Positions 7,906-20,125 of a stretch of 20,551 nt of DNA are shown one piece after another (within the stretch, counting starts at the first letter, position 1; each line of letters begins with the position of its first letter). The position numbers and the translations under genes are program-made. Under the pieces are notes generated by a model that saw only the letters and a program-made list of their open reading frames with translations, was not told the DNA's origin and ran no database searches. Source of the DNA: a virus; the IMG/VR virus record IMGVR_UViG_3300006922_000244, positions 1 to 20,551 of that record. One strand, 5' to 3'.

Positions 7906-7945
7906 ATTATACTAAGATTTTGACCATTTGTCAAGATCTATTTTT
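7906..7945 (-). promoter_or_regulatory. strong sigma70 promoter of the ligase C-half/replication operon
   Basis: On the minus strand -35 TTGACA (7934-7929) and -10 TATAAT (7911-7906) are separated by exactly 17 bases. The -35 is preceded by the window's shared upstream box, here AAAAATAGATC. The predicted start near 7899 gives a leader of about 18 bases to the ATG at 7881. The promoter sits inside the end of the GIY-YIG gene. Confidence 0.92.
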
Positions 7946-8299
7946 GGGGAAGTCCTGAAGAATTAAGGAAGAAATTTTGAAACACTCTGTATGTCCTCCA
8001 AACTTAATTTTTGGAGCATAGCTGTCATGCTTATACTTAGCATGAAGTTCCTGTTCAAACTTCCAGCAATTATATATAGTGTCGTGGTAAGTTCGTTGTA
8101 TTCTTAAGTCGTAGTATTTGAATCCTCGACTTCGTTTGATTACGTGTCTCCAATCTTTCCCACTAGCTATACCTACCTTGATACACTCTCGGTTCCATGT
8201 TTTTGTATTGACTAAAATTACGCCGTATAAAACTCCGTCCCTTTCTTTTTCAAGAGGACGATTATCGAAGTATGTTTGATTGTATACTCCTCCAGCCAT
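7931..8299 (-). CDS. GIY-YIG-like (T5orf172/MUG113 type) endonuclease
   Basis: 122 residues. Visible family features are LYGVILVN (24-31) and IKVGIASG (40-47), equivalent to the GIY and YIG strands, a basic WRHVIKRSRG segment, an acidic helix residue in FEQELHAKY (E82/E84), and FGGHTECF at 100-107, which matches the FxGxTExF ending of T5orf172-like domains. It would be a DNA nuclease of small free-standing homing type. I place the start at ATG 8299, which overlaps the preceding stop as TAATG; a start at 8332 is possible but would overlap the neighbour by 34 bases and leaves a poor N-terminus. It lies between the two ligase halves, so it may be responsible for the gene split. Its own 3' end carries the promoter for the second half. 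Confidence 0.68.
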   Translation of the reverse strand: MAGGVYNQTYFDNRPLEKERDGVLYGVILVNTKTWNRECIKVGIASGKDWRHVIKRSRGFKYYDLRIQRTYHDTIYNCWKFEQELHAKYKHDSYAPKIKFGGHTECFKISSLILQDFPKNRS

Positions 8300-8499
8300 T
8301 AGAATATTTCTAAAGTAAAGTTTTCTGCACACTCTTCAGCGTACTGTTCAGTATGGCCTGTAATAACTCTGTCTTCTTTCCATATTTGGTTTTCAAACAT
8401 CCTAACTACATAACCATTCTTGTGGCTGTAAATTTCTGCTTTTCTATTTTTAGCTCGAAACTCATGTAATAAAGCTCCATCTATGATTTGTATACTCAT
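8299..8499 (-). CDS. small hypothetical protein, 66 aa, between ligase halves
   Basis: 66 residues starting MSIQIIDGALLHEFRA. It overlaps the ligase N-half stop as ATGA (8499-8496) and ends in TAATG at the GIY-YIG start. The sequence has alternating hydrophobic strands (YSHKNGYVVRMFENQIWKE) and a C-terminal helix with two cysteines' worth of ECAENF-like character, suggesting a small alpha/beta fold. It has no signal peptide or membrane segment. I do not recognise a function. Tight coupling on both sides argues it is a real gene. Confidence 0.75.
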   Translation of the reverse strand: MSIQIIDGALLHEFRAKNRKAEIYSHKNGYVVRMFENQIWKEDRVITGHTEQYAEECAENFTLEIF

Positions 8500-9428
8500 C
8501 CTATCCTCTGTACAATTTGTGGTATTATCTTACCTGCTCTAATTACTTCTACATAGCACCCAATCTCTAAGTTAAGTGCTTCTATAATAGCTTTATTATG
8601 CAGACTTGCTCTACTAACCAATGCATCTTCTATCATTACTGGCTCTAGAATTGCAACTGGAGATACTGCACCTGATTTACCTACTTGCCATTCTACATCT
8701 AATAATGTAGTAACGACTCCCGGCTCTCTTTTCTTCAGAGCGTATGCTCCTCTAGGGTGGTGACTAGTAAATCCTAACTCTTCAAACTGTTTATTACTGT
8801 TTACTCGCATGACTAGTCCATCTTGAGGATATTCCTCAGCTTGATCAGCTATTGATATAACAGTATCGAATCCTAGTGATTGTATATAATCCAAATCAGT
8901 CTCATAGTTTTCTGTAGGAGATACATTGATGCCGTATGCAATGAACCTTATGTCTCGAGTCATAAACTCATCAACACTTTTAAGGTTCAATGCTCCAGCA
9001 GCATAGTTTCTTGCGTTTGGTATGGTCTTTGGGGAGACTACCTCTCCTGTTATCTGCATAGGAGCAGTTACAGGAAAGGAGGTAGGTAACTTCTTAGACA
9101 TTAGTCTAGTGATATCTAATCCTTGTTTTCCATCTCCCCTTGTAAGCACTTTCTGTACTTTACCATCTGCAATTAATATACTTATCGCAGCTCCATCAAA
9201 CTTAGGTGTAACTACAGTACACGGAAACGCAGGTTTATCTTCTCCTTCCCATACTTTTTGCAGGGAAAACATTGGATATAAATGCGGGAACCGTTTTTCT
9301 GAGACATCAGAGTACCCAACATCCTCGATGTTTGCTAGGTTAAACAAATGGTCATATATCTCATCTGACATAATGGGAGAGCCTTTGTAATACTCTTCTG
9401 ATGCTTTTCTAACTAAATCTGAAATCAT
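8496..9428 (-). CDS. ligA: NAD-dependent DNA ligase, N-terminal half (adenylation + OB)
   Basis: 310 residues equal to the front half of bacterial LigA. Domain Ia is present in part (EEYYKGSPIMSDEIYDHLF, NAD binding). The nucleotidyltransferase motif I is TPKFDGAA with catalytic K76; TRGDGKQGLDIT (97-107), GEV with E129, NARNYAAGALNLK (138-150), QDGLVMRVN (202-210) and YALKKRE (K232) follow. The OB fold begins near 243 and ends RAGKIIPQI. It adenylates itself with NAD+ but lacks the zinc finger, HhH and BRCT parts, which are encoded at 7129-7881. It starts two bases after the stop of the preceding small gene and is followed by two small genes before the other half, in a different transcription unit. 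Confidence 0.95.
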   Translation of the reverse strand: MISDLVRKASEEYYKGSPIMSDEIYDHLFNLANIEDVGYSDVSEKRFPHLYPMFSLQKVWEGEDKPAFPCTVVTPKFDGAAISILIADGKVQKVLTRGDGKQGLDITRLMSKKLPTSFPVTAPMQITGEVVSPKTIPNARNYAAGALNLKSVDEFMTRDIRFIAYGINVSPTENYETDLDYIQSLGFDTVISIADQAEEYPQDGLVMRVNSNKQFEELGFTSHHPRGAYALKKREPGVVTTLLDVEWQVGKSGAVSPVAILEPVMIEDALVSRASLHNKAIIEALNLEIGCYVEVIRAGKIIPQIVQRIG

Positions 9429-9430
9429 AA

Positions 9431-9706
9431 CTATTTGCCTATGTGTTTGACGTCATCTCTTGGTATAACTTGGTATGCACCTTTGTTATACGCAACAGCG
9501 ACTGTGTATTGTTTACTTACTTCCTTCTTGTATGAAGTGTCTTGTGCAGGACTATATGGTTTAAGTTCTGCACTTGGTATAGAGGGTGAGGAAGGCAGGG
9601 TATGATCCTGCACCTGTAGGCGAACCCACTGTCCTGACCGGTTAGACGACTTCCTCTTTGTCTTTAATCTGTTCTTTCTTTTACGCCCATGCTGGTCGTA
9701 GCTCAT
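9431..9706 (-). CDS. basic hypothetical protein, 91 aa
   Basis: The product begins MSYDQHGRKRKNRLKTKRKS: the first 30 residues are very rich in Lys/Arg, the middle is Pro/Ser-rich and probably unfolded, and the end (YTVAVAYNKGAYQVIPRDDVKHIGK) looks like a short conserved recognition tail. I choose ATG 9706 because AAGGA stands just before it and the predicted transcript start gives it an 18-base leader like other genes here. The in-frame ATG at 9724 falls on the predicted transcription start and would add six residues. Lysine-rich head plus disordered body suggests binding to nucleic acid or to the ribosome, but no function is recognised. It opens the ligase N-half operon. Confidence 0.78.
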   Translation of the reverse strand: MSYDQHGRKRKNRLKTKRKSSNRSGQWVRLQVQDHTLPSSPSIPSAELKPYSPAQDTSYKKEVSKQYTVAVAYNKGAYQVIPRDDVKHIGK

Positions 9707-9730
9707 ACTTCCTTTTAAAATCATAAGTAT

Positions 9731-9770
9731 ATTATACAGAGATTTTGGGGAGTTGTCAAGAACTATTTTA
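9731..9770 (-). promoter_or_regulatory. strong sigma70 promoter of the ligase N-half operon
   Basis: On the minus strand TTGACA (9759-9754), 17 bases, TATAAT (9736-9731), with the shared upstream box TAAAATAGTTC directly before the -35. The box overlaps the stop codon of the PC4-like gene. The predicted start is about 9724. Confidence 0.93.
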
Positions 9771-10070
9771 TGATTGGTAAGTTTGGTTTATAAGGTCAGA
9801 GAACTCTCTTTCTAATATTTCTCTTGACTCTGCTAGAGAAATAATTTCTACAAGACCTTCGAAAAGACCTCTTGTATTCTCAAAGTCAATAGACATAGCA
9901 ATGCCGTCCTTACTAGGCTTCCATTCTTCATCAAAATCTTGATAATACTTACGAAGATGTAGATACTCTTTGCCTCTAAAACTATTTACTACTAGTCTTA
10001 CTTGCTCCGAGTTATCTTCGTTAACTGAAATGACCTTCTCATATTTTGCTGGTGCCTCATACAGGTTCAT
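9768..10070 (-). CDS. PC4-like single-strand DNA-binding / transcription coactivator protein
   Basis: 100 residues. The stretch VRLVVNSFRGKEYLHLRKYY (24-43) followed by EEWKPSKDGIAMSIDFE (48-64) matches the PC4/p15 fold: two strands, the RGKxYLxLRxYY element, then WxPxxxGIxLxxE. A long helix (66-96) completes the domain. Family members such as YdbC bind single-stranded DNA as dimers, so a role at replication forks, in recombination or in transcription bubbles is likely. No separate OB-type SSB is seen in the window, so this could partly take that role. AAGGTG stands seven bases before the ATG; the gene overlaps the preceding one by 14 bases. The call is by motif resemblance. Confidence 0.72.
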   Translation of the reverse strand: MNLYEAPAKYEKVISVNEDNSEQVRLVVNSFRGKEYLHLRKYYQDFDEEWKPSKDGIAMSIDFENTRGLFEGLVEIISLAESREILEREFSDLINQTYQS

Positions 10071-10326
10071 TTCTAATCACCTTGTTGAGTGGTACAATAC
10101 TTGTTACATTATCTGGCACAAGTATTCTGTAGGAATCTGTGTCCCAACAGAAGCATAATACAGTGTGTTGACCGCTTTTCGCCCTAGTTTTCTTTGATTG
10201 TATATATTTATTATCAAAATCTATAGTACACACGTTATATTTCAACTTGCGACTATTTTGACTTCTGTAAGTAATTACTGCATCCCCTGCTCTGTCCATT
10301 TTTTCAATGAACTCTTTCTTTTTCAT
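10057..10326 (-). CDS. hypothetical protein, 89 aa
   Basis: 89 residues starting MKKKEFIEKMDRAGDAVITY after a good AGGAG. The sequence alternates short beta-type stretches (YNVCTIDFDNKYIQSK, HTVLCFCWDTDSYRILVP) and ends with SIVPLNKVIRN, which suggests a small beta-barrel. It has three cysteines but no CxxC. It is co-transcribed with the PC4-like gene, which it overlaps by 14 bases, and lies just after a terminator, so its level probably depends on read-through. I do not recognise the family. Confidence 0.75.
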   Translation of the reverse strand: MKKKEFIEKMDRAGDAVITYRSQNSRKLKYNVCTIDFDNKYIQSKKTRAKSGQHTVLCFCWDTDSYRILVPDNVTSIVPLNKVIRNEPV

Positions 10327-10390
10327 ACTTCTCCTTAGTTAATAGTTGAAAATTTTCTTCTTTTTAACTTAAGGTCAATATTTTAGATAC

Positions 10391-10416
10391 AAAAATACCC
10401 CGAACTAGTCGGGGTA
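10391..10416 (-). terminator. intrinsic terminator after the HTH gene
   Basis: Perfect eight-base arms TACCCCGA (10396-10403) and TCGGGGTA (10409-10416) around a five-base loop, followed on the minus strand by TTTTTG. It closes the HTH transcript started at the 10879 promoter. Confidence 0.9.
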
Positions 10417-10423
10417 CAAACAA

Positions 10424-10867
10424 TTACTCGTTTATTTTGTTGATAAGGTCAGCAAAATACTGTGCTGCTTTACCAGTTAGTTTTTCAACTATAGAACTAT
10501 CTACATCATGACCTGCGTCACTGATTGCAGATGATAGTGCATCTTGAGCGTCAGCTTTTGATACTCTAGTTCCACCTGTTGAACCACCTGAAGCCTTGGC
10601 TGCTGGTGTTTTCTTGACATAGACGCCAGCCTTAGTAAGAATCATTCTGACTCCGTTAGGTGTTTGCCCTAGTTGCTCAGCAATGTCTGCAACTATTTCC
10701 ATACTATTCTCTGGTGTAGCATTCTCTTCTACATACATATCAATAGCTTCTTGTTTTGTTTCATCTGTCCATGTTGACATACGTTTTCTCCTGTGTTTGT
10801 AAAATTCAGGCATGCCGGGTGCCCACCCTGTCGCTTCCTTCATTTGTTGGTAATATCTATCACTCAT
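10424..10867 (-). CDS. GcrA/SANT-like HTH protein with alternative starts
   Basis: 147 residues from ATG 10867, or 118 from the internal ATG at 10780. The domain begins MSTWTDETKQEAIDMYVEEN and continues IVADIAEQLGQTPNGVRMILTKAGVYVKK, a trihelical DNA-binding unit like those of the four-repeat protein. A Gly/Ser/Ala linker follows, and a helical tail (KADAQDALSSAI ... LTGKAAQYFADLI). A perfect AGGAG lies seven bases before ATG 10780. The upstream ATG 10867 is only about five bases from the predicted transcription start, giving a nearly leaderless message with 29 extra residues rich in aromatic and charged positions. Both forms may be made. It is a monocistronic unit with its own strong promoter and terminator, suggesting an abundant regulator or nucleoid-type protein. 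Confidence 0.82.
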   Translation of the reverse strand: MSDRYYQQMKEATGWAPGMPEFYKHRRKRMSTWTDETKQEAIDMYVEENATPENSMEIVADIAEQLGQTPNGVRMILTKAGVYVKKTPAAKASGGSTGGTRVSKADAQDALSSAISDAGHDVDSSIVEKLTGKAAQYFADLINKINE

Positions 10868-10878
10868 AATATAAATAT

Positions 10879-10921
10879 ATTATAATAAATTTTGAAAGAT
10901 TTGTCAAGAACTATTTTATAC
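10879..10921 (-). promoter_or_regulatory. strong sigma70 promoter of the HTH gene
   Basis: On the minus strand TTGACA (10907-10902), 17 bases, TATAAT (10884-10879), preceded by TAAAATAGTTC, identical over 11 bases to the box at the 9731 promoter. The predicted start near 10872 is five bases before ATG 10867. Confidence 0.93.
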
Positions 10922-10924
10922 ATC

Positions 10925-11122
10925 CTATGAAAAATGTTTCTTGATTGCTTTAATTTTATCTTCTGCTTCGGCTATTTTTGAGACTTGAGTCTCCATAGCT
11001 TCTACAATATCAGGGTGTTCCCCAATACCAACAGAGTTGCGTTGATATGTCAATAGGTTTGCCTTTGCAACCTCTGCATCTCCTTCCAATTTTTTGATTA
11101 ATGCTGTAAATAAATAATTCAT
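10925..11122 (-). CDS. small helical hypothetical protein, 65 aa
   Basis: 65 residues, MNYLFTALIKKLEGDAEVAK onward. Almost wholly helical with a conserved-looking loop NSVGIGEHPDIVEAM between two amphipathic helices, a likely helical hairpin or coiled coil. No cysteines and no membrane segment. It overlaps the preceding membrane-protein gene by four bases (ATGA) and is the last gene of the operon that starts at 13264. Function not recognised. Confidence 0.78.
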   Translation of the reverse strand: MNYLFTALIKKLEGDAEVAKANLLTYQRNSVGIGEHPDIVEAMETQVSKIAEAEDKIKAIKKHFS

Positions 11123-11388
11123 TCTTGTCCTTCCATTATAGTTACTAGATACTTTGTTATAAATCTATCCTGTAACTCATCATTCACTATACACCCCCAT
11201 AAAAAGGGTGCGCCTATGGTGAAGCCTATTAGTTGTATAATAAATACAAGTGGCCACCATCTTGTTACTGCGTGATCTGGATATGACCTCCTCATATAGT
11301 TATGAATAGGCCACCATAATCTTCCCATTAACATTATTATTGATGACAAATAAATTGCCAACAATATACTAAATAAACTTAACTCCAT
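11119..11388 (-). CDS. membrane protein with two predicted helices, 89 aa
   Basis: Two hydrophobic stretches, about 2-24 (LSLFSILLAIYLSSIIMLMG) and 45-67 (WPLVFIIQLIGFTIGAPFLW), flank a basic loop with RRSYPDHAVTR. The C-terminal tail NDELQDRFITKYLVTIMEGQE is polar. The basic loop suggests both ends face outward, or a hairpin in the inner membrane. The gene is 20 bases overlapped with the HTH gene upstream. It could be a phage inner-membrane factor or holin-like; it is not inside the lysis cassette, so I give no function. Confidence 0.78.
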   Translation of the reverse strand: MELSLFSILLAIYLSSIIMLMGRLWWPIHNYMRRSYPDHAVTRWWPLVFIIQLIGFTIGAPFLWGCIVNDELQDRFITKYLVTIMEGQE

Positions 11389-12034
11389 ACTGCTCCAAGT
11401 GTCTTAAACTACCAAGCTCATAAGCAGGTTGAACAGTATATTTTCCAGCGAAAGGTAAATGAGGAAAATAAGTATCTTTTAAATCGTCTTGACTACACTC
11501 TATGGTGTAACAAAGATATAACTTATATCCTCTTGTTTCCGCTTTTTCAGGGAACAACTCTTTCTTTATGTATGCAGGGTAATTTACCCTAATTGCCCAT
11601 ACTACCTCTCCCTCGTGGAATGTGTCAGCTACACATTGTTCGGGTAATAACGCTCTCCTTCTGGCTTCATAATCTGAATCAGCGAGTTTCATTGGTATTC
11701 CAATTCTCTCAATGATATTCTTTATAAAGGCGGGGGATCGGTAGATGGACTGTGCAATAGAAGATACATTAAAACCTTCTACATACATTTTAGCAACGCT
11801 AGAAATTTCATCTCTACTTGCAGGCTTGCCTTTGTTCAGGGCTTTTCGTCTAGCCTTGAACTCCTGTGTGTCCTTCCATTCTTCAATAATTTTCTGAAGT
11901 CTGGTCGTGTTATACCTAATATTCAGAATTCCGCATGCTTCTTTCTTTGTTATAGGACTAGGTTGTTCAAGTAGCTCTATAACTTGTCTAATATTTACAT
12001 CAGTAAGATTTTCATATGATTTATTTTTTATCAA
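11369..12034 (-). CDS. double helix-turn-helix protein, 221 aa
   Basis: Two HTH-like units occupy the N-terminal half: PITKKEACGILNIRYNTTRLQKIIEEW (about 27-53) and SRDEISSVAKMYVEGFNVSSIAQSIYRSPAFIKNIIERIG (about 73-112). The C-terminal half (KGxVVWAIRVNYPAYIKKE-like, then LYLCYTIEC) is beta-rich and ends TVQPAYELGSLRHLEQYG, possibly a ligand- or partner-binding domain. Probably a DNA-binding regulator of phage or host genes. It overlaps both neighbours (14 bases with the DUF3310 gene upstream, 20 bases with the membrane gene downstream). Its target and effect are unknown. Confidence 0.78.
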   Translation of the reverse strand: MIKNKSYENLTDVNIRQVIELLEQPSPITKKEACGILNIRYNTTRLQKIIEEWKDTQEFKARRKALNKGKPASRDEISSVAKMYVEGFNVSSIAQSIYRSPAFIKNIIERIGIPMKLADSDYEARRRALLPEQCVADTFHEGEVVWAIRVNYPAYIKKELFPEKAETRGYKLYLCYTIECSQDDLKDTYFPHLPFAGKYTVQPAYELGSLRHLEQYGVKFI

Positions 12035-12293
12035 TCTCTTCTCCTAGCAACATAATTGCGTAATGTAATATTTTTAAAATATCTTCTTTGTTTTTGCCGT
12101 CTTTTTTACCATATCTTTGAGCATATTTTATAATGTTTCCTAAACAGAAACTTTCTCCATGCCCAGCATCAAATATAAACTCAGTTGCCTGAATTTTATT
12201 CATACTGTAGTGTTGGTCATATGTTCCTAAAATGTGGTTCTTTAGGATAAGGAGGGCTTCTCGTTCGTTAAATTTATTGTTCGTTATTTCCAT
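12021..12293 (-). CDS. DUF3310-like protein, 90 aa
   Basis: 90 residues. The core HYSMNKIQATEFIFDAGHGESFCLGNIIKYAQRYGKKDGKNKEDILKI is the DUF3310 pattern: HY-x-(I)-Q-x-x-E, then F-x-LGNIIKY-x-xRYGKK and a helix ending in a hydrophobic hairpin. The family is common in phages and is often annotated as a nucleotide kinase or MazG-like factor without proof. Here it lies with glutaredoxin and a repair-type gene, which fits nucleotide metabolism. The ATG at 12293 overlaps the end of a 50-codon gene by ten bases. Confidence 0.72.
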   Translation of the reverse strand: MEITNNKFNEREALLILKNHILGTYDQHYSMNKIQATEFIFDAGHGESFCLGNIIKYAQRYGKKDGKNKEDILKILHYAIMLLGEEIDKK

Positions 12294-12436
12294 GCTCTAA
12301 ATATCTTGGTTATTTTGTTATTTTTTAGTAGTTTAATTTGTTTTCTCCATCTTACAGATGTTTTTGTCTTTTCTTCGAGGTTATCACTATCGTTTATAAC
12401 TCTAGTTTGTCCATCACTTGTTTTAATAGGTTTCAT
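12284..12436 (-). CDS. very small basic hypothetical protein, 50 aa
   Basis: Reads MKPIKTSDGQTRVINDSDNL and ends TKIFRAWK; more than a quarter of residues are Lys or Arg. The ribosome binding site GAGGAG is formed by the last two codons of glutaredoxin, with the ATG one base after that gene's stop. It ends over the start of the DUF3310 gene. The close tiling and good ribosome binding site argue for a real gene. No motif or function is recognised; a nucleic-acid binding peptide is possible. Confidence 0.68.
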   Translation of the reverse strand: MKPIKTSDGQTRVINDSDNLEEKTKTSVRWRKQIKLLKNNKITKIFRAWK

Positions 12437-12437
12437 A

Positions 12438-12668
12438 TTACTCCTCGTTTGTTAGTAGCGATAGCAATGCTGAATAGCCACCAATCTTTTCTCCGTTAAA
12501 TATAATCTGCGGAAAGGTTCTAGCGGTTGGGAACTCTGCCATAAAGTTCTTAGCAGTATAATCTTCTCCCATGTTTAAGTATCTTACTTCTGCTTTCTTA
12601 TTCTCTGCTAGGTTCTTTGCCATAGTGCAGTAAGTGCAGTTATCTTTGCCATAAATTGTTACTTTCAT
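12438..12668 (-). CDS. grx: glutaredoxin
   Basis: 76 residues, the size of a minimal class I glutaredoxin. The dithiol active site is C11-T-Y-C14 after a first strand KVTIYGKDN. The cis-proline motif is TFPQI at 51-55, and IGGY at 62-65 forms the glutathione-binding turn. It reduces disulfides, most usefully those of a ribonucleotide reductase during phage DNA synthesis; no reductase lies in this window. It starts inside the end of the preceding gene (ATGA overlap) and supplies the ribosome binding site for the next. Confidence 0.95.
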   Translation of the reverse strand: MKVTIYGKDNCTYCTMAKNLAENKKAEVRYLNMGEDYTAKNFMAEFPTARTFPQIIFNGEKIGGYSALLSLLTNEE

Positions 12669-13264
12669 TTTGCTGTTATCCTTTTCTCATAGTCGGCGTA
12701 ATCTTCATTCCACCAATGTGGTTTGTCTCTGTATGACCACTTAGCAAAAGTTGCTTTGTCTAAGTGATAGTAGTCTCTGTAAGACTGAATCGGATTACCT
12801 TCCATTTTGAGCTCGTCAGGCATGGCTAGTAGGAACTCCGTCATTCCCAATCTTTCCATGTTTTTGGGTTCTGGTAATCGGTTGATTACTTCCACCACTG
12901 ATTTGTGCTGTTTACCGTATCTATAATAATATTCGTCGTTGAGGGCATTTGCATAACAGTGAACCCATTCGAAGTTATCAAGCGATGATCGAGTCCAAAT
13001 AGTACAAGGGTGATTGTACATCATTGGAAGGTAAGGTGTCAAGGGTCTCTCTTCCATTGGCAAGTGTTTAATTTCTGACTTTCGAGAATTAAGTTCTCGA
13101 GTTTCCTCTTTATTAAGTGCTCGCGGAATGAAACCTAGAACTGAATCTATCCATATTGCCGTACAAAGTAGCTGGGCTGCTTCGAGTGGCATCTTAACTA
13201 TATGCTTGTCTACATGAGCTTCCGCACACATATCTAAATTTTCGTCTAAGTAAAATAAATTCAT
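12665..13264 (-). CDS. conserved phage protein, possibly Pyr_excise-like DNA glycosylase
   Basis: 199 residues. The start MNLFYLDENLDMCAEAHVDKHIVKM, with two histidines, then HPCTIWTRSSLDNFEWV, YYYRYGKQHKS, AMPDEL and SYRDYYHLDK, is a familiar phage protein pattern that is sometimes linked to the pyrimidine-dimer glycosylase/endonuclease V fold. If so, it would remove UV-damaged bases, but I cannot confirm the catalytic residue. The ATG at 13264 is fixed by the conserved N-terminus and lies at the predicted transcription start, so the message is probably leaderless. It is the first gene of a seven-gene operon with glutaredoxin next. An uncharacterised metal-binding role is the main alternative. 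Confidence 0.72.
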   Translation of the reverse strand: MNLFYLDENLDMCAEAHVDKHIVKMPLEAAQLLCTAIWIDSVLGFIPRALNKEETRELNSRKSEIKHLPMEERPLTPYLPMMYNHPCTIWTRSSLDNFEWVHCYANALNDEYYYRYGKQHKSVVEVINRLPEPKNMERLGMTEFLLAMPDELKMEGNPIQSYRDYYHLDKATFAKWSYRDKPHWWNEDYADYEKRITAK

Positions 13265-13270
13265 AAATCT

Positions 13271-13310
13271 ATTATACAGAAATTTCGACCCGTTGTCAAG
13301 ACTTATTTTT
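13271..13310 (-). promoter_or_regulatory. strong sigma70 promoter giving a leaderless message
   Basis: On the minus strand TTGACA (13299-13294), 17 bases, TATAAT (13276-13271), preceded by the upstream box AAAAATAAGTC. Only six bases separate the -10 from the ATG at 13264, so the seventh base, the usual start point, is the A of the start codon. Confidence 0.93.
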
Positions 13311-13345
13311 AGTGAGGTTTATATTTAGTAGGGATTGTAAAAGGT

Positions 13346-13376: not shown

Positions 13377-13390
13377 AACTGGTGAGATAA

Positions 13391-14621: not shown

Positions 14622-14857
14622 AATTCTTGTATCCTGTAATTTAAGCCTTCCGCACCTCTTATCTCTACAACTTCCCCATCTGTGGTCTGGAATTTTAAGT
14701 ACTTATCTTTTTTGGAGAAGAACTTCTTCACCATAAATACTTGGTCATCCCCATCCCCGTAGGTAGAGTTATAACTGACGATTAATTTATATCGAGTTGC
14801 GAAAAGTTTTAAAAAGCTGTCCCAAAATTTGAGGAGCATAGTCTTTAGCTTAGACAT
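14618..14857 (-). CDS. hypothetical protein, 79 aa, in the lysis cassette
   Basis: Begins MSKLKTMLLKFWDSFLKLFA, an amphipathic basic helix that could attach to a membrane, then a small beta-rich domain: YKLIVSYNSTYGDGDDQVFMV, KKFFSKKDKYLKFQTTDGEVVEIRG. The gene overlaps lysozyme by eight bases and the i-spanin-like gene by four. It is not a typical holin, since no clear membrane span is present. Function not recognised. Confidence 0.75.
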   Translation of the reverse strand: MSKLKTMLLKFWDSFLKLFATRYKLIVSYNSTYGDGDDQVFMVKKFFSKKDKYLKFQTTDGEVVEIRGAEGLNYRIQEL

Positions 14858-15293
14858 GTTCCCAGATTGCTCCTTGAAATAATAAAGCTTCAGCTTCTCG
14901 TCTTCTGATAAGACCTTCTAAAACTTTACCTCCAGCTTTGTTCCACCTTTTTAGTTGGCTAGGAACATCTTCATAATCGTTTGCATTTAATCTCTTCAAA
15001 AGAGTTGATGCTTTTAGATTAGCTGGTCCAAGGTTGTACACCCATGAGACTAGGGCGTCAAATTGATTTTGTGTTAAAGAACATTCTACTAGGTCATTTA
15101 TATAACCCTCGAATTCTATTAGCTCATGTTTCAATGCGTCATCAGCGTCTGCTTCTGTCCACACATCTCCCTCTACTACATCCTTTGTATGCCCATATCC
15201 TATAGTCCATACTCCAGCCGCACATTTATATGCGTTTAATTCTAGTCCTTCAAATTTTTTGATAAGGGCTAAGCCCTCTGTTGATGTGTTCAT
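14850..15293 (-). CDS. endolysin, T4-type lysozyme (GH24)
   Basis: 147 residues, full length for the family. The catalytic region is KFEGLELNAYKCAAGVWTIG with E15, C24 and T30, so the aspartate of the classic E-D-T triad is a cysteine here, as in some other phage lysozymes. QNQFDALVSWVYNLGPANLKASTLL and NKAGGKVLEGLIRRREAEALLF complete the C-terminal lobe. It cuts the glycan strands of peptidoglycan. There is no signal peptide or signal-anchor segment, so release should need a holin, and candidates lie downstream in the same cassette. AGAGGAG precedes the ATG. A terminator stands between it and the Hsp20 unit, so lysis genes probably depend on antitermination or read-through. Confidence 0.95.
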   Translation of the reverse strand: MNTSTEGLALIKKFEGLELNAYKCAAGVWTIGYGHTKDVVEGDVWTEADADDALKHELIEFEGYINDLVECSLTQNQFDALVSWVYNLGPANLKASTLLKRLNANDYEDVPSQLKRWNKAGGKVLEGLIRRREAEALLFQGAIWEHV

Positions 15294-15308
15294 ATTTCTC
15301 CTCTGTGT

Positions 15309-15330
15309 AAAAAGGGAGCCGAAGCTCCCC
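15309..15330 (-). terminator. strong intrinsic terminator between the Hsp20 unit and lysis genes
   Basis: Perfect six-base arms GGGAGC (15314-15319) and GCTCCC (15324-15329). On the minus strand the loop is the stable TTCG tetraloop and the hairpin is followed by TTTTTAC. No promoter is visible between it and lysozyme. Confidence 0.92.
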
Positions 15331-15354
15331 CATAACTTTACCCTGTGTAAAATT

Positions 15355-15486
15355 TTAAGTCAGTACGCTAATACTATTTACCATGATTCCGCCGAATGTT
15401 ATCAGCAGAAAACAATTCATAGTAGCGTCGCAGAACTTGCCATCTTCACAAATTAAAAGTTTTAATTCGTAAAATTTTTGTTTCAT
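15355..15486 (-). CDS. very small hypothetical protein, 43 aa, after hsp20
   Basis: The ATG overlaps the Hsp20 stop as ATGA and the gene ends just before the terminator, so it forms a two-gene unit with hsp20. The product begins MKQKFYELKLLICEDGKFCD and its second half (CFLLITFGGIMVNSISVL) is hydrophobic enough for one membrane span. No ribosome binding site is needed if translation is coupled. The placement argues for a real gene, but no homolog comes to mind. Confidence 0.55.
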   Translation of the reverse strand: MKQKFYELKLLICEDGKFCDATMNCFLLITFGGIMVNSISVLT

Positions 15487-15878
15487 TTTATGTCAAATAC
15501 CTTTGGTTTCTTCTCATCTGGTATGACCTTCTCTAATTCTATGCTTAGCAAGCCGTTTTCAAACTCTACCTCATTGACGTTTATAAATTCGCCAAGAGAG
15601 AAAGTTCTTTTAAACACTTTTCCACTTATGCCTTTGTGTAAGTAAGATTCCTCTTCTCCACACTCTAGTTTAGTATTTCCTTGGATAGTCAGTTGCCTGT
15701 TCTCCAAAGTTACTTCAATGTTCTCTTTAATCCAGCCTGGCAACGCCATTTCAATACGAAAGTAGTCATCACCGCGTGTTACTATATTATGTCGAGGATA
15801 CGCTGTATCGTCAACGGGGTTAAAAAATCTCTCGTCAAAGCCGAGAAAGTGCTTTAATAGATAGTTGTCTATTGTCAT
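15483..15878 (-). CDS. hsp20: small heat shock protein Hsp20 (alpha-crystallin domain)
   Basis: 131 residues. A short N-terminal arm is followed by the alpha-crystallin domain from about 30: HNIVTRGDDYFRIEMALPGW, NIEVTLENRQLTIQG, VFKRTFSLGEFI, and the signature FENGLLSIELEK with G109-L110-L111. The C-terminal tail PKVFDIK is short and lacks a clear IxI motif. Such chaperones bind unfolding proteins without ATP; phage copies occur in marine myoviruses and could help virion assembly or stress survival. AGGAG precedes the ATG. A strong promoter lies upstream with a 161-base leader that may be regulatory. Confidence 0.95.
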   Translation of the reverse strand: MTIDNYLLKHFLGFDERFFNPVDDTAYPRHNIVTRGDDYFRIEMALPGWIKENIEVTLENRQLTIQGNTKLECGEEESYLHKGISGKVFKRTFSLGEFINVNEVEFENGLLSIELEKVIPDEKKPKVFDIK

Positions 15879-16039
15879 TGTTGTCTCCTTTTCAGTAAGC
15901 TTGCATCTTGGTTAAGTTTGCCCCTTTCGGTAGCATTAATTCCCTAGTTCTAAAACTGAATGTTCAAAGATGCAGAAAGAACCTGTTTTATTGATTGAAC
16001 TATACCATCCCATATCCCATAGTGCGAAATTCACACTAC
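15879..16039 (-). promoter_or_regulatory. 161-base structured leader of hsp20, possible RNA control element
   Basis: The predicted transcript starts near 16039 and reaches ATG 15878, far longer than the 0-18 base leaders of other promoters here. A near-perfect hairpin (arms 16032-16038 and 16020-16026) sits at the very 5' end. Two inverted eight-base arms, 15967-15974 and 15902-15909, could close a larger domain. Two mini-ORFs exist: one of 6 codons starting at 16020, and one of 14 codons starting MLPKGANLTKM after AGGGA and ending 16 bases before the hsp20 start. Bacterial hsp20 genes are often controlled by RNA thermometers, so that is a reasonable idea, not a demonstration. Confidence 0.45.
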
Positions 16040-16045
16040 AGATAT

Positions 16046-16085
16046 ATTATACTAAATTCTGAAGTTGATGTCAAGAATTATTTTT
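16046..16085 (-). promoter_or_regulatory. strong sigma70 promoter of hsp20
   Basis: On the minus strand TTGACA (16074-16069), 17 bases, TATAAT (16051-16046), preceded by the box AAAAATAATTC. It overlaps the end of the 48-residue membrane-protein gene. Confidence 0.93.
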
Positions 16086-16224
16086 CATCATCTTCAAGGA
16101 CAAGTAGCCCTTTATCTTCGAGAACATCAATGGTGTGTCGTATGAAGTGGTACTTACATAAAAAGTAAGTGCCTACATTCGATAATACTAACCATATCAG
16201 TACTGCTAAATCATTATTATTCAT
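16078..16224 (-). CDS. small membrane protein, 48 aa
   Basis: I place the start at ATG 16224 (MNNNDLAVLIWLVLSNVGTY), which has AAGGGA upstream and a leader of about 18 bases; any farther start would lie beyond the promoter. One membrane helix covers about 6-22, followed by CKYHFIRHTIDVLEDKGLLV and an acidic end. It stands alone between its own promoter and the hsp20 promoter, so it is a monocistronic gene or read-through partner. Function not recognised. Confidence 0.72.
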   Translation of the reverse strand: MNNNDLAVLIWLVLSNVGTYFLCKYHFIRHTIDVLEDKGLLVLEDDEK

Positions 16225-16248
16225 AGTGTTTCCCTTTTTTATGTATAT

Positions 16249-16289
16249 ATTATACAACTTTTCTAACGCCAGGTCAAGAACTATATTTA
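16249..16289 (-). promoter_or_regulatory. sigma70 promoter, minus arm of the divergent pair
   Basis: On the minus strand TTGACC (16277-16272), 17 bases, TATAAT (16254-16249), preceded by AAATATAGTTC. It faces away from the plus-strand promoter at 16309; the two -35 boxes are 31 bases apart. Predicted leader about 18 bases. Confidence 0.9.
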
Positions 16290-16296
16290 ACATGGT

Positions 16297-16337
16297 CAAA
16301 AATAATACTTGACACAAGGTTCTATTTTTAGTATAAT
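16297..16337 (+). promoter_or_regulatory. sigma70 promoter, plus arm of the divergent pair, leaderless
   Basis: TTGACA (16309-16314), 17 bases, TATAAT (16332-16337), preceded by AAAAATAATAC, the same type of box as on the minus-strand promoters. Six bases separate the -10 from the ATG at 16344, so the predicted start is the start codon itself. Confidence 0.92.
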
Positions 16338-16343
16338 ATGGAT

Positions 16344-16517
16344 ATGAACAAAAGATGGACTCAAGAAGATAAACAGTATTTGCGGGATAACTATAAGCTA
16401 ATTCCCACTACAGAGATTTGCAAGAAACTTCAGGTTACTGAGAGTCAACTCTATTCGCAGATACACTACTTACGAAAGAGAGGTTGGGCTTTCAATCACA
16501 GGAGAGCAAATGCCTAG
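16344..16517 (+). CDS. single-domain GcrA/SANT-like HTH regulator, 57 aa
   Basis: The product begins MNKRWTQEDKQYLRDNYKLI and continues PTTEICKKLQVTESQLYSQIHYLRKRGW: one compact trihelical domain of the WT-x-E type found repeatedly in this window. A basic end (HRRANA) follows. There is no ribosome binding site because the ATG coincides with the predicted transcription start. The last codons contain the AGGAG of the bS21 gene, which it overlaps by eight bases. A DNA-binding protein under a divergent promoter pair is a good candidate for an autoregulator, which is inference. Confidence 0.82.
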   Translation: MNKRWTQEDKQYLRDNYKLIPTTEICKKLQVTESQLYSQIHYLRKRGWAFNHRRANA

Positions 16518-16737
16518 TATATACTGTAAAAATATGCCAGCAGAAAAGGCAATTCGTATTTTTCGTAAGAAATGCGAGGCCGCTCAAATCAAAGAACGCT
16601 GTCGCGAACTCGAATTCTATGAGAAACCAACAGTGAAACGCAAACGCAAGAAAAACGAGCAAAGGAAGAGACATCTTAAATCATTAAATCAAATCCCATC
16701 CGACTATCGAAAGAGAAATAAATTTTCTCGGAGATAA
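16510..16737 (+). CDS. rpsU: ribosomal protein bS21, phage-encoded
   Basis: 75 residues. AEKAIRIFRKKCEAAQIKER corresponds to the first helix of bS21 (A-x-R-x-FKR-x-C-E-x-AG), and CRELEFYEKPTVKRKRKKNE to the family signature (R-x-x-EFYEKPTxxRKRKK), followed by a basic helix. bS21 binds the small ribosomal subunit near the anti-Shine-Dalgarno region and favours translation initiation. Phage copies are known from marine viruses and may replace the host protein on ribosomes. It has AGGAG five bases before the ATG and is co-transcribed with the HTH gene, in the only plus-strand operon of the window. Confidence 0.95.
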   Translation: MPSIYCKNMPAEKAIRIFRKKCEAAQIKERCRELEFYEKPTVKRKRKKNEQRKRHLKSLNQIPSDYRKRNKFSRR

Positions 16738-16790
16738 GACGTTCCCAGAAGTCACGCACAATGACCCTACCAAAAATAAAACTTGTAATC

Positions 16791-16818
16791 TTGATAAAAG
16801 TGTGATAAAATATATACT
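16791..16818 (+). promoter_or_regulatory. candidate plus-strand promoter after bS21
   Basis: TTGATA (16791-16796), 16 bases, TATACT (16813-16818), five of six matches at each hexamer. The preceding TAATC resembles the end of the shared upstream box. There is no gene behind it, so it may drive a non-coding RNA. Confidence 0.5.
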
Positions 16819-16824
16819 ATAAAT

Positions 16825-17005
16825 TAGAATAATTACTCAATTCATTCTTCTCTCTCCTAATCGAGACCTACTCCGATTATCTTAAAACAAGGCTCTTCGA
16901 GCGTAAGCGAAGAAGAGACCTGAGATGAACTGAGTGAAAGGTCGAGAGAGAAAATACAATCTAATTCAACAACGAAAAAGACCGACTAAAAGCTAATCGG
17001 TCTTT
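16825..17005 (+). ncRNA. candidate structured small RNA, about 180 bases
   Basis: There is no open reading frame of note in this stretch. Arms TTCTCTCTC (16848-16856) and GAGAGAGAA (16944-16952) pair perfectly. Directly inside, AGGTC (16939-16943) can pair with GACCT at 16865-16869 or, alternatively, with GACCT at 16917-16921. A hairpin capped by a GTAA tetraloop lies at 16893-16917 (CTCTTC against GAAGAG). The 16977-17005 hairpin could end the RNA. The two alternative partners for AGGTC suggest a possible switch. Transcription direction is inferred from the promoter at 16791; a transcript from the bS21 promoter could also include it. Confidence 0.4.
16977..17005 (-). terminator. intrinsic terminator of the accessory operon
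   Basis: Nine-base perfect arms AAAGACCGA (16977-16985) and TCGGTCTTT (16997-17005). On the minus strand the hairpin runs into TTTTTCG, fitting termination of the 20059-17054 operon. On the plus strand only three U follow, so it could work weakly in both directions. Confidence 0.88.
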
Positions 17006-17053
17006 GATGTCTGTCTAAAACTGCGTCTTAATTATCTAAAGACTTCGCCCAAT

Positions 17054-17278
17054 TCAAAATTTTTCATTAATCTTTCCCGTAATTGCATCTAATCTTTTAC
17101 GTCTTTTTATTTCCTCAACTTCTACTTCCATATCTAGAAATCGTACTTCAGTGTTCAAATATTCCATACTATCCCCAGTCTTTAGCGTAACCTTTAGATA
17201 CATTAAATCACCATGCATTCTAAAGTCCTGTCTATCACACATTCCTAGACCTTTCGGGGTCATTACTATTCTTCGCAT
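17054..17278 (-). CDS. hypothetical protein, 74 aa
   Basis: Starts MRRIVMTPKGLGMCDRQDFR after GGAGG, overlapping the end of the HTH gene by 13 bases. The middle (HGDLMYLKVTLKTGDSMEYL) looks like a small beta sheet, and the end is a charged helix (EVEEIKRRKRLDAITGKI). It is the last gene of the 11-gene accessory operon, followed by a terminator. No family recognised. Confidence 0.72.
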   Translation of the reverse strand: MRRIVMTPKGLGMCDRQDFRMHGDLMYLKVTLKTGDSMEYLNTEVRFLDMEVEVEEIKRRKRLDAITGKINEKF

Positions 17279-17577
17279 ATTGCCTCCAATACTAGCTTGA
17301 GAGTTTCTTTCGGAGCTTTCTCTAGCCCTTCCAAGTCTCCATACATTAAACCAAACTTCTCCTCTAGTTCTTGCACTAGCTGAGCCTTTGTTACTGGTTT
17401 CTCTCCAGACTTCGTCACATAATTCATTCTTATGTAGACTCCTTCTTTAGATAGTTTACCAATTACTGACTTCTCACTCTTGCCAAGTTCTTTTGCGAGA
17501 ATCGCAACAGTTTGGCGGTTTGGAGCGTCTCTATATCTTTTCACTATATCCGCTGTTACTTCCTTACTATAGTTCAT
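17266..17577 (-). CDS. GcrA/SANT-like HTH protein, 103 aa
   Basis: Residues 2-50 (MNYSKEVTADIVKRYRDAPN, then VAILAKELGKSEKSVIGKLSKEGVYI) form the same trihelical DNA-binding unit seen in three other genes of this window; SVIGKL is especially like GcrA-type recognition helices. The C-terminal half (VTKAQLVQELEEKFGLMYGD and a final helix) may be a dimerisation part. It overlaps its upstream neighbour as ATGA. Likely regulator; target unknown. Confidence 0.8.
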   Translation of the reverse strand: MNYSKEVTADIVKRYRDAPNRQTVAILAKELGKSEKSVIGKLSKEGVYIRMNYVTKSGEKPVTKAQLVQELEEKFGLMYGDLEGLEKAPKETLKLVLEAICEE

Positions 17578-17816
17578 ACATCCTTCCTTTCATAGTCGTC
17601 TATGACTTGCTCTACACTGTTTGGTAGCTGACATATACTTATCTTCTTTCCTTCTAGCTTATGTACTGCTCCATTGTTATAGTATACAAAATAACCTTCT
17701 CCAAATCCTAAATCACCGCCACCTTTACAACTGTAATGCTGACATATTTGGTTTCCCCATTCTTCTGCAGCTAGATACAGTCTTTGTTTTTCTACTTCGT
17801 TTTTATACTGTGTCAT
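17574..17816 (-). CDS. hypothetical protein, 80 aa
   Basis: MTQYKNEVEKQRLYLAAEEW forms an N-terminal helix; QICQHYSCKGGGDLGFGEGYFVYYNNGAVHKL follows, with a Gly-rich turn and likely strands. Two cysteines lie close together (ICQHYSC) but no full zinc site is visible. The gene overlaps both neighbours as ATGA. Function not recognised. Confidence 0.72.
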   Translation of the reverse strand: MTQYKNEVEKQRLYLAAEEWGNQICQHYSCKGGGDLGFGEGYFVYYNNGAVHKLEGKKISICQLPNSVEQVIDDYERKDV

Positions 17817-18445
17817 GACGTACTCCAGAATTCATCTGCTAGTTCGTCTAGCACTTCGTAAGGGTATATCGTTTCGCCTTCTACTTCGTACTCGCCATGA
17901 TAGTCAAAGTCTTTATCTTCTGTGTCTATGCTAGGGAATAACTCATTAAACTGTTGCATTAGTTGGTCTCCGTCAGTTTCGTAGAACTCTCCTTCCCAAG
18001 CAGTCCACTGTAGATTATTGTGTTCTGTTCCATAGTATTGCTTACCCATGAAGTTTCTAAACTCATCTTCGTATGTCATAGTTCCGTTCACTTCAGTATC
18101 GAACTTGTTTGCATACCACTCTATTATATTTAGCATTAGCTCATGTGGTTGTCTCCAAGCTGAATACCCACTTATAAAGCAACCATCCATATCTTCTATG
18201 TTACACCACTTAGCACCTATATTATCACAGTACCAATCATATGAGTTTTCTAACTCGCCGTCTTTGTCAAAGGTTTTAGCTACGTTTTCCATGAATGGCT
18301 GGTTCTCTATGTAGTCATAGTCCTCATATTCATATGGATTGCCATCATAATCGTTTCTAGTTCCCTTTACTTTCTGGATTCCCTCATTCCATTGTTCATC
18401 CGTTATACCTTCTATACTCATTGTAAAATATACATGATTTGCCAT
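17813..18445 (-). CDS. acidic protein, possibly Api92/YubB ferredoxin-like fold, 210 aa
   Basis: 210 residues; roughly a quarter are Asp or Glu, many of them next to Tyr. The start MANHVYFTMSIEGITDEQW, followed by WYCDNIGAKWCNIEDMDG and a YSAWRQPHELMLNIIEWYA stretch, resembles the Api92-like ferredoxin-fold proteins, where a W-x-x-x-x-G-x-KW element precedes a TAWxPP-like segment. The C-terminal third is very acidic (SIDTEDKDFDYHGEYEVEGE). The role of that family is unclear; strong negative charge would also fit a DNA-mimic or anti-defence protein, which is speculation. It overlaps both neighbours. Confidence 0.72.
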   Translation of the reverse strand: MANHVYFTMSIEGITDEQWNEGIQKVKGTRNDYDGNPYEYEDYDYIENQPFMENVAKTFDKDGELENSYDWYCDNIGAKWCNIEDMDGCFISGYSAWRQPHELMLNIIEWYANKFDTEVNGTMTYEDEFRNFMGKQYYGTEHNNLQWTAWEGEFYETDGDQLMQQFNELFPSIDTEDKDFDYHGEYEVEGETIYPYEVLDELADEFWSTS

Positions 18446-18573
18446 TATACAATCCTCCCTAGAATAAATACTTGTAGAATTAGTACTAATATAGGTACTA
18501 CTGTTCTCACAAGCTCTAAGCTGTGTTTATACTTGCTTAGCTCTGTTTCAAAATTATTTTTCTTTTTCGCCAT
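18445..18573 (-). CDS. tail-anchored small membrane protein, 42 aa
   Basis: The start is ATG 18573 (MAKKKNNFETELSKYKHSLE) with GGGAGA upstream; a longer reading frame exists but would run through two neighbours. A basic head is followed by one membrane helix at about 22-40 (VRTVVPILVLILQVFILG) right at the end. TAATG overlaps join it to genes on both sides. No function recognised; tiny tail-anchored proteins are common in phage accessory operons. Confidence 0.7.
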   Translation of the reverse strand: MAKKKNNFETELSKYKHSLELVRTVVPILVLILQVFILGRIV

Positions 18574-18665
18574 TATCTGTTCTCCCAAAATACGCAGACA
18601 AATAAGATGCCTACTACTACTGTTATTAATCCAATACCCGCCAATAAATTCTCTATTAACTCCAT
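18573..18665 (-). CDS. 30-residue single-span membrane peptide
   Basis: Starts MELIENLLAGIGLITVVVGI and is almost entirely one membrane helix ending CVFWENR. AGGAGA lies upstream, the start overlaps the MazG stop (TAATG) and its stop overlaps the next start (TAATG). Such exact tiling with a ribosome binding site supports translation despite the small size. A membrane-acting peptide next to another small membrane protein could form a pair. Confidence 0.65.
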   Translation of the reverse strand: MELIENLLAGIGLITVVVGILFVCVFWENR

Positions 18666-19063
18666 TAGATGTCTCCTTCTTCTCGCACTTCACTACGAAT
18701 CTTCTCAAAGCCATTCGGATATCTCTTCTCTAGCTTTGCTATGTTTTCTTTCATCACTTCTTCAGGTGTATACCCTAGAGCAATACATCCTTGAATCCAG
18801 TACCAAAGGACATCTCCCAGTTCACGCTTCATGTGATACCTGTTGCCTTCGTTCATTTCTTTACCTTGGAAAAATATTTTTTTCATAATCTCGGTAAATT
18901 CTCCACTTTCTGCTAACATCCCTATAGCTGAAGTCATTAACCTACTCCAGTCTACGTCAGGATGCATGATGCTAAGTTTGGTTATTCTCTGCTGAAAAGC
19001 ATTCGTTTCTCTACTCTCAGCCGAGGTACATTTGTCTACAAATTTCGCATAATCATTTATCAT
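18665..19063 (-). CDS. mazG: MazG-like nucleoside triphosphate pyrophosphohydrolase
   Basis: 132 residues of the single-domain, all-helical MazG type. The metal-binding motif is E52-x-x-E55 (AESGEFTEIMKK) and E81-x-x-D84 (KRELGDVLWYW), followed by EVMKENIAKLEKRYPNGF, a family-typical ending. It would hydrolyse NTPs, dNTPs or related nucleotides to monophosphates; in marine phages it is often proposed to tune nucleotide pools or alarmone levels. It overlaps the upstream basic gene as ATGA. Confidence 0.9.
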   Translation of the reverse strand: MINDYAKFVDKCTSAESRETNAFQQRITKLSIMHPDVDWSRLMTSAIGMLAESGEFTEIMKKIFFQGKEMNEGNRYHMKRELGDVLWYWIQGCIALGYTPEEVMKENIAKLEKRYPNGFEKIRSEVREEGDI

Positions 19064-19197
19064 CTGCCTTGCCCCTTATATTTCTTGAAGCTACGCTTCT
19101 TGTTTTTGTTCATGTTTAAGCTAATTCTGCTGTGTGAATCACCTTGTGCAGTTTTCTTTTTGTGCGATTTATGTTTCGCTTTACCACTCCACCTCAT
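19060..19197 (-). CDS. very basic small protein, 45 aa
   Basis: Begins MRWSGKAKHKSHKKKTAQGD and ends KNKKRSFKKYKGQGR; about a third of residues are Lys or Arg and there is no acidic residue except one Asp. It is probably unfolded and nucleic-acid binding, like ribosomal-protein tails. It overlaps the preceding gene (ATGA) and the MazG start (ATGA). Real-gene status rests on the tiling. No family recognised. Confidence 0.65.
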   Translation of the reverse strand: MRWSGKAKHKSHKKKTAQGDSHSRISLNMNKNKKRSFKKYKGQGR

Positions 19198-19421
19198 GAT
19201 TGCACCTCAGGTGTAACCCACTCTATTTTGATACCTCTACGCTGAAGTTCGTTTATGCACTTCTGTCTTACTTTTGGTTTCATGTTAGCTCCTTTTGAAT
19301 TTACGTATTCAAATAGCTCTTCTTTTTTCATTGTGTGCATGTAGAAGTGTTCCATTGGCAATTTACTTGCCGGTACGCCTCTAACGTATTTCTTTGCACT
19401 TGGTCTAAATTTTGTTGGCAT
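19194..19421 (-). CDS. conserved phage hypothetical protein, 75 aa
   Basis: MPTKFRPSAKKYVRGVPASK, then LPMEHFYMHTMKKEELFEYVNSKGANMKPKVRQKCINELQRRGI. A basic unstructured head is followed by two or three helices with a LxxYVN-turn-KxxxKCINELxRRG element, a pattern I have seen in phage proteins of unknown role. A very good AGGAGGTGCAAC precedes the ATG. No enzymatic motif is present. Confidence 0.78.
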   Translation of the reverse strand: MPTKFRPSAKKYVRGVPASKLPMEHFYMHTMKKEELFEYVNSKGANMKPKVRQKCINELQRRGIKIEWVTPEVQS

Positions 19422-19431
19422 GTTGCACCTC

Positions 19432-19707
19432 CTATGTGTCTTTACCTATCTTGTTTGTTTGTTCATTTTTTAGTAGTCGTTCCAAGCGTTGTATTTCGTT
19501 TTGCAACTCAACAACGCATGTCTCGAACTCTATAACTTCGTTATATAGCATATCTTGTACTTGCTGAAGCTGGAATGACATTTCTTGTAGATTTGTCATG
19601 CTTCGCTCCATATGCTCTCTATAAAAAGATACTCTATCTATTGTTGGAAATGGCATCACTTTTCCACTTTGGTCGCTCTTCACTCCCTTTGAAAATTTAT
19701 CTGTCAT
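19432..19707 (-). CDS. coiled-coil hypothetical protein, 91 aa
   Basis: I choose ATG 19707 (MTDKFSKGVKSDQSGKVMPF): it stands one base after the stop of the preceding gene with GGAG upstream. A start near 19743 would overlap that gene by 35 bases. The region DRVSFYREHMERSMTNLQEM to the end is one long helix with heptad-like leucines (VVELQNEIQRLERLLKNEQ), so a coiled coil is likely. No function recognised. Confidence 0.75.
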   Translation of the reverse strand: MTDKFSKGVKSDQSGKVMPFPTIDRVSFYREHMERSMTNLQEMSFQLQQVQDMLYNEVIEFETCVVELQNEIQRLERLLKNEQTNKIGKDT

Positions 19708-19708
19708 C

Positions 19709-20059
19709 TTAAACTCCGCTTGTTGTATGGGCGTATTGCTCATCACATTCTAACTTTCCACACACGCATTGCTGCAGTTTGTACTCGTCTATTAGCCATT
19801 CACCTACTGTATTTATTATTGCGTCGTAACTAATATCGCCAGTATTCCCTTCTATATTGTAAGCATATTTCATAGCTTGAAGCAATACATCTGATGGGAT
19901 ATCGTATGCGTCTATTAAGAACTGTCCGCTGTCTGATTGATAACAATCAAACTCTGCCCAATAGCCTAGGTCATTGACTACGCCTTGTGGTTCTAATACT
20001 CCATATATAATGCAGTTGTGCTCCTTTTCTAAGTGTTTTAGTGTTGTCCATAAATCCAT
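19709..20059 (-). CDS. hypothetical protein, 116 aa, first gene of the accessory operon
   Basis: Starts MDLWTTLKHLEKEHNCIIYG after AAGGAGAAAACA. A central alpha/beta part (YWAEFDCYQSDSGQFLIDAY) is followed by helices, and a CVCGKLECDEQYAH end with three cysteines and a histidine that could bind a metal, although the spacing is not a known finger. Strong promoter upstream with a leader of about 18 bases. Function not recognised. Confidence 0.78.
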   Translation of the reverse strand: MDLWTTLKHLEKEHNCIIYGVLEPQGVVNDLGYWAEFDCYQSDSGQFLIDAYDIPSDVLLQAMKYAYNIEGNTGDISYDAIINTVGEWLIDEYKLQQCVCGKLECDEQYAHTTSGV

Positions 20060-20083
20060 TGTTTTCTCCTTAAATATAGTAAT

Positions 20084-20125
20084 ATTATACAGAGAAATAA
20101 GGTGTTTGTCAAGAACTATTTTTTA
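20084..20125 (-). promoter_or_regulatory. strong sigma70 promoter of the accessory operon
   Basis: On the minus strand TTGACA (20112-20107), 17 bases, TATAAT (20089-20084), preceded by AAAAATAGTTC. Predicted start about 20077. Confidence 0.93.

Follow-up and report, generated by a model that had tools for sequence, protein, structure and literature searches.

An A/T-rich box upstream of the -35 element in promoters of an uncultured T5-like phage family

Promoters in the window

We examined a set of promoters, and the A/T-rich box just upstream of them, in the IMG/VR virus record IMGVR_UViG_3300006922_000244. The window that we analyzed is the whole record (20,551 bases). Judged by its genes, it comes from a T5-like (Demerecviridae-related) phage of an uncultured family and covers only part of the genome. 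An earlier note had listed eight promoters in the window, and all eight are present: each has TATAAT and a spacer of exactly 17 bp, and the -35 element is TTGACA in seven of them and TTGACC in the one at 16277 (minus strand). For each promoter, the note lists the lowest coordinate of the 29-bp core. As the note stated, the promoter at 16309 is on the plus strand; it is the only one, as the other seven are on the minus strand (their -35 elements start at 7934, 9759, 10907, 13299, 16074, 16277, and 20112). The note was correct that the box promoters occur on both strands, but the balance is 7:1 (minus:plus).

The first minus-strand promoter (7906–7944; core 7906–7934, box 7935–7944, AAAATAGATC) is upstream of ligB (7129–7881). 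The next (9731–9769; core 9731–9759, box 9760–9769, AAAATAGTTC) is upstream of the gene at 9431–9724. The promoter at 10879–10917 (core 10879–10907, box 10908–10917) precedes the gene for a DNA-binding protein (10424–10867, phrog_1725), and the one at 13271–13309 (core 13271–13299, box 13300–13309, AAAATAAGTC) precedes 12665–13264 (phrog_624). An Hsp20-like gene (15483–15878) lies downstream of the promoter at 16046–16084 (core 16046–16074, box 16075–16084, AAAATAATTC). The TTGACC promoter (16249–16287; core 16249–16277, box 16278–16287, AATATAGTTC) is upstream of a gene for a small protein (16078–16248), and the last minus-strand promoter (20084–20122; core 20084–20112, box 20113–20122, again AAAATAGTTC) is upstream of 19709–20059. 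On the plus strand, the promoter at 16299–16337 (box 16299–16308, AAAATAATAC; core 16309–16337) is the divergent promoter of a small helix-turn-helix (HTH) gene.

The core, TTGAC[A/C]-N17-TATAAT, occurs eight times in the window. Across 1000 dinucleotide shuffles, the mean was 0.014 and the maximum was 1. A related sequence, TTGACT-N17-TATAAT, at 5368 (plus strand), lacks the box (7 mismatches at 9 positions) and lies within the helicase gene, which runs on the other strand.

Aligning the eight sites confirmed the shared A/T box that the note had reported directly before the -35 element: it reads AAAA(A/T)ATA(G/A)TTC, with small deviations. Counting back from the -35 element, six positions are the same in 8/8 sites: A at -10, -9, -7, and -5, T at -6, and C at -1. 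Position -8 is A in 7/8, -4 is G or A, -3 is T in 6/8, and -2 is T in 7/8. Written as AAAATAnTTC, the box occupies positions -45 to -36 if TTGACA is numbered as -35 to -30. Perfect matches to the nine specified positions occur four times in the window, versus 0.7 expected, and all four are joined to a -35 element. If one mismatch is allowed, there are 30 matches, versus 13.6 in shuffles. Because 20 of these 30 lie off promoters, the looser box is specific only in combination with the core.

Conservation of the box

Contigs that were selected by pattern (L039–L158 and G001–G010, several of which are drawn from L039–L158) are enriched for the box. We have three less biased tests: thinned perfect cores in unselected relatives, a comparison of orthologous promoters, and a scan with the core only. 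Genes were assigned to sites by homology within set distances.

The earlier note proposed a search of relatives for the box, and suggested that the box would be in doubt if relatives kept the -35 and -10 elements without it, or if scrambled boxes matched equally well. Neither is the case. In 38 contigs that were found only via their helicase, nearly all intergenic cores have the box. Among thinned perfect cores from unselected relatives that are not identical to the window's, all 13 have the box with at most one mismatch out of 9.

For the orthologous promoters, we began with 342 core sites that precede an orthologous gene. After removing the 121 sites identical to the search pattern, thinning the others, and setting aside the 17266 group (8 sites), we had 100 sites whose selection depended only on the core and the gene. 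The box has at most two mismatches in 93 of the 100; an exact AAAATA starts at -10 in 75 of them and elsewhere in 3. The mean pairwise identity is 0.87 for the A6 part of the box and 0.84 for TTC, versus 0.32–0.43 for the flanks and the spacer. For ligB, all 13 orthologous promoters have the box (at most two mismatches). The relatives do keep the box. In the 17266 group, the box is not conserved (at most two mismatches in 3/8); where we mapped these promoters in long contigs (G001, G002, and G003), they are in or near a cluster of promoters adjacent to sciB, which is described below.

The exact box and core are found in at least 120 viral contigs, versus 3 with the box scrambled. Of 120 such contigs, 104 also encode homologs of the window's proteins. 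In bacterial genomes, the exact pattern has 16 matches, and window homologs are encoded in 3 of the 16 (L164, L165, and L171). For the core-only scan, we read 115 loci out of 120 stretches and skipped sites less than 30 bases from an end. The box is present (at most two mismatches) in 35/45 sites from the family, versus 7/79 sites from other viruses. By these sequence comparisons, the box is real, conserved, and lineage-specific.

Relationship to T5 promoters

We aligned 37 of the 40 annotated T5 promoters, in two stretches, covering T5 outside of 50 to 60 kb. (The long P-D/E20 entry, the 6-bp P-F30 entry, and one copy of P-H22 were left out.) The T5 promoters have an A-tract at -10 to -7 (A in 73, 92, 81, and 92%) before TTGCTW. 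The tract is in the same register in T5, VCPH, 70E37-2 (weak at -7), Gary, AhSzq-1, and KEY, which include phages of Vibrio, Aeromonas, and Erwinia. These cultured relatives thus retain the A-box, but with different -35 letters.

The promoters of the T5-like phage AKFV33 and the early promoters of T5 (such as N25 and H207) resemble those of the window's family: they have an A-tract at about -45 to -42; a spacer of 17–18 bp with A/T blocks; a G before TATAAT; and TATAATA with an A/T discriminator. (The AKFV33 report describes AAAAATT at -43; PMC3326045.) Specifically, the window's promoters share with T5's N25 type N17, TATAATA, and an A-tract that spans -10 to -7 relative to the -35 element. 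In contrast, the -35 element of T5-like isolates is mostly TTGCTW, and T5's box is AAAAATTYAt, while the window's family has TTGACA or TTGACT (or TTGACC), AAAATAnTTC, and often ATG at +1. Because of the -35 element, the window's promoters are a variant of the N25 type rather than the same promoter. We conclude that the family's promoters are a variant of the already known T5-type promoter, with their own version of the box.

We also noticed an AAAnTTT-like block in the spacer of the family's promoters, at columns +14 to +19. It resembles the spacer UP (upstream promoter) element of T5 N25, which is described, along with an UP element, in PMC12464699.

Likely function of the box

The earlier note offered three explanations for the box: an UP-type element, a binding site for a phage regulator, or the mark of one temporal class. 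The first is best supported. We think it probable that the host's sigma70 recognizes the eight sites as promoters of T5's N25 type and that AAAATAnTTC is a lineage-specific proximal UP-element subsite. The box is A/T-rich, directly upstream of the -35 element, at a fixed spacing, and within the region where proximal UP elements are placed (-45 to -37; PMC2613000), and its register is shared with T5 promoters. All classes of T5 promoters are reported to use the host's sigma70 RNA polymerase (PMC7472727). On the other hand, the box differs from a typical proximal subsite in having a T inside the A-tract and a conserved TTC, and the signs of a distal subsite in the family's promoters are weak. 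The partial UP element of phage Mu's Pm promoter, as described in PMC4390567, is also a proximal-type subsite in a phage promoter, but Pm needs the activator Mor, and Mu's subsite is further upstream.

If the box is an UP-element subsite, then the host's RNA polymerase probably uses one alpha subunit C-terminal domain (alpha-CTD) to hold on to AAAATA by its narrow minor groove, immediately upstream of where sigma region 4 sits at the -35 element. The combination of the box, consensus -35 and -10 elements, the AAAnTTT-like spacer, and an A/T-rich discriminator would yield promoters that can outcompete the host's genes, beginning once the early region enters the cell. We infer the alpha-CTD contact, the strength of the promoters, and the timing.

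Several observations weigh against this explanation. The consensus selected in E. coli is reported to have its A-tract at -44 to -41, and the same study reports that half UP elements may hardly change output (PMC5664571). The box has T at the fifth specified position (93%, in a set that was enriched by the search pattern) as well as the conserved TTC. This is more sequence than the known needs of alpha-CTD, so further specificity may be contributed by a phage factor, by sigma region 4, or by a host alpha-CTD that differs from that of E. coli. And an activator of the class II type would likewise sit at a fixed spacing.

Such an activator is the strongest alternative, although we consider it doubtful: in this case, the box would be bound by a phage regulator (the 57-residue HTH protein that the note suggested, the D5-like factor, or another small HTH protein) that activates transcription from beside RNA polymerase. 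In its favor, an UP element would not need so long or so specific a box, genes for the HTH protein and the D5-like factor are present in the window, and the promoter of the HTH gene is one of a back-to-back pair of box promoters. However, detached boxes are not above chance (9 versus 11 expected, in 412 kb of G001–G010), and the same A-tract is found in the promoters of T5 and other T5-like phages; 19 of the T5 promoters are reported to have been identified by in vitro transcription (PMC7472727). We also considered an operator dyad formed by weak flanking preferences for ACC (-15 to -13) and GGT (+9 to +11), and rejected it because the two do not covary (z = -0.1 to -1.0). So, the box has neither the dyad symmetry nor the free-standing copies of a phage operator. 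An activator may bind only next to the -35 element. Overall, contact with RNA polymerase is favored over an operator because of the fixed spacing, the location in the proximal UP window, the A/T core, the lack of free-standing boxes, and the lack of dyad covariation.

A role for the box as the mark of a single temporal class is less likely still. We classified 136 sites from ten long contigs and the window, of which 37 were unassigned or inside genes. The box (at most two mismatches) is present in 72/80 early promoters, in just 2/14 promoters of the sciB-adjacent, putative pre-early cluster, and in 12/37 of the unassigned or intragenic sites. The near absence from the cluster fits the idea of a temporal class, but the clear late promoters, which are those of sciB and the p149 operon, have the box in 5/5 cases. 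Because the box is common to early and late promoters, and is mostly absent only beside sciB, it is not the mark of a single class. What differs between early and late promoters is the first base of the discriminator: among promoters with the box, it is A in 67/72 early promoters and T in 5/5 late ones. This agrees with a report that the early and late promoters of T5 differ mainly in the discriminator (PMC7472727).

The cluster beside sciB contains strong TTGACA promoters and was seen in three long contigs: at 20.9–22.1 kb of G001 (L184), 52.5–53.4 kb of G002 (L181), and 24.4–25.3 kb of G003 (L297). Most of these promoters lack the box, and some have TAAAAT and GC-rich discriminators. They are possibly pre-early promoters, but we use this name only by analogy, as in one contig the cluster includes a weak homolog of dmp.

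Finally, it is very improbable that the box is just the look of any very strong sigma70 promoter in an A/T-rich virus: the 79 unrelated viral promoters do often have C at -1 (59%) and are also A-rich at -7 to -5, but few of them have the full box, and scrambling the box removes nearly all of the matches.

Candidate leaderless mRNAs

Many of the box promoters seem to be fused to a start codon. We considered 320 thinned box promoters (from loci L001–L158, L179–L187, and L296–L311, and from the window at 13262–13299, minus strand, and 16309–16346, plus strand) and asked if the first ATG was 5–8 nt after TATAAT, opened a reading frame of at least 40 codons, and had no Shine-Dalgarno motif. This was the case for 88/320, which places the ATG at about +1. 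At offset 6, there are 70 ATGs, and 64 of them open such a reading frame, versus 1–3 at offsets 3–5. Offsets 0 and 2, which are upstream of the predicted start, also have many ATGs (22 and 37 sites), in part because of the shared TATAATAT(G) letters. By the list of motifs that we used, just 1 of the 88 has an alternative in-frame start with a Shine-Dalgarno sequence within 75 nt.

The window has two examples. The candidate leaderless start of 12665–13264 (13262–13264, minus strand) is 6 nt past TATAAT, at the predicted +1. The 57-residue HTH protein (16344–16517, plus strand; phrog_14101, D5-like) also has its ATG 6 nt past TATAAT and is another candidate for a leaderless mRNA.

ATGs at offsets 5–8 are rare or absent in cultured relatives (T5 0/25, VCPH 1/32, 70E37-2 1/10, Gary 0/9, KEY 0/11, and AhSzq-1 0/3). 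They are found at 9/107 unrelated viral promoters, and at 7/23 loci from the family that were not chosen by motif, including the window. The fusion varies by gene: HTH 10/10, sciB 7/7, 12665 16/24, ligA 10/24, and ligB 0/18. For the genes with fused starts, homology often begins at or near residue 1, but for some, the match begins further in or downstream. In the window's gene at 9431, an internal ATG after GGAAGT is a competing start.

The ATG at the predicted +1 suggests that these mRNAs are leaderless. We lean towards a broader proposal, in which a strong promoter and a start codon often form a single cassette: the ATG is 6–7 nt past TATAAT, and transcription begins at the A of the AUG. In that case, replication genes, sciB, and regulator genes would rely on leaderless mRNA as a standing strategy, in a phage whose other genes often use Shine-Dalgarno leaders. 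This would possibly free some genes from ordinary initiation late in infection. Our searches of the open-licence literature brought up no paper on leaderless mRNA in T5-like phages. The start-codon fusion is the most surprising part of our findings.

Gene content of the window

The window's genes correspond to the early region of T5-like phages. They include the D5-like transcription factor (6407–7126, minus strand; phrog_323), which is a marker of the T5 family; ligB (7129–7881, minus strand) and ligA (8496–9428, minus strand), which together encode an NAD-dependent DNA ligase that is split in two halves, like that of T5-like phages; a DnaB-like replicative helicase (4995–6344, minus strand) that is ~30% identical to those of T5-like phages; a primase; and a family A polymerase. 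These Demerecviridae markers are in a T5-like order, and the gene order resembles that of Vibrio phage VCPH. The window itself lacks structural genes, but the T5-type capsid, portal, TerL, and sciB are present in two long relatives (G001 and G002).

The window's proteins are ~30–51% identical to those of cultured relatives. A search for near-identical DNA among named phages gave no match, and neither did Rfam or tRNA scans of the window. The nearest cultured proteins (~45–50% identity) are from phages of Vibrio, Aeromonas, and Enterobacterales, and they do not identify the host; a search with the 12665 protein matched a wide mix of phages.

The Hsp20-like small heat shock gene (Pfam E = 6e-15) is between the lysis genes and the HTH region. 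Such genes are not known to be common in T5-like isolates. Between the helicase and the primase (3823–5005), reading the translation revealed adjacent genes that resemble a nucleotide-sugar epimerase and a cytidylyltransferase. On the minus strand, 20200–20551 has no convincing gene and ends in a terminator-like hairpin and a run of T just upstream of the promoter at 20112. This stretch had no match in Rfam and is possibly a structured RNA.

Implications

The register of the A-box outlives the letters of the -35 element, which makes it the most evolutionarily stable part of the T5 promoter. The promoter signature also finds an uncultured T5-like branch from DNA alone, as most of the matching viral contigs encode homologs of the window's proteins. 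How T5 switches between classes is said to be unexplained (PMC7472727), and comparing the box and the discriminator across classes suggests where to look. Lastly, leaderless genes were reported in 15 of 239 genomes of γ-proteobacteria, where they account for about 4.5% of genes (PMC3160421). Next to those rates, the fusion of start codons to strong promoters in this phage family would, if true, be unusual.

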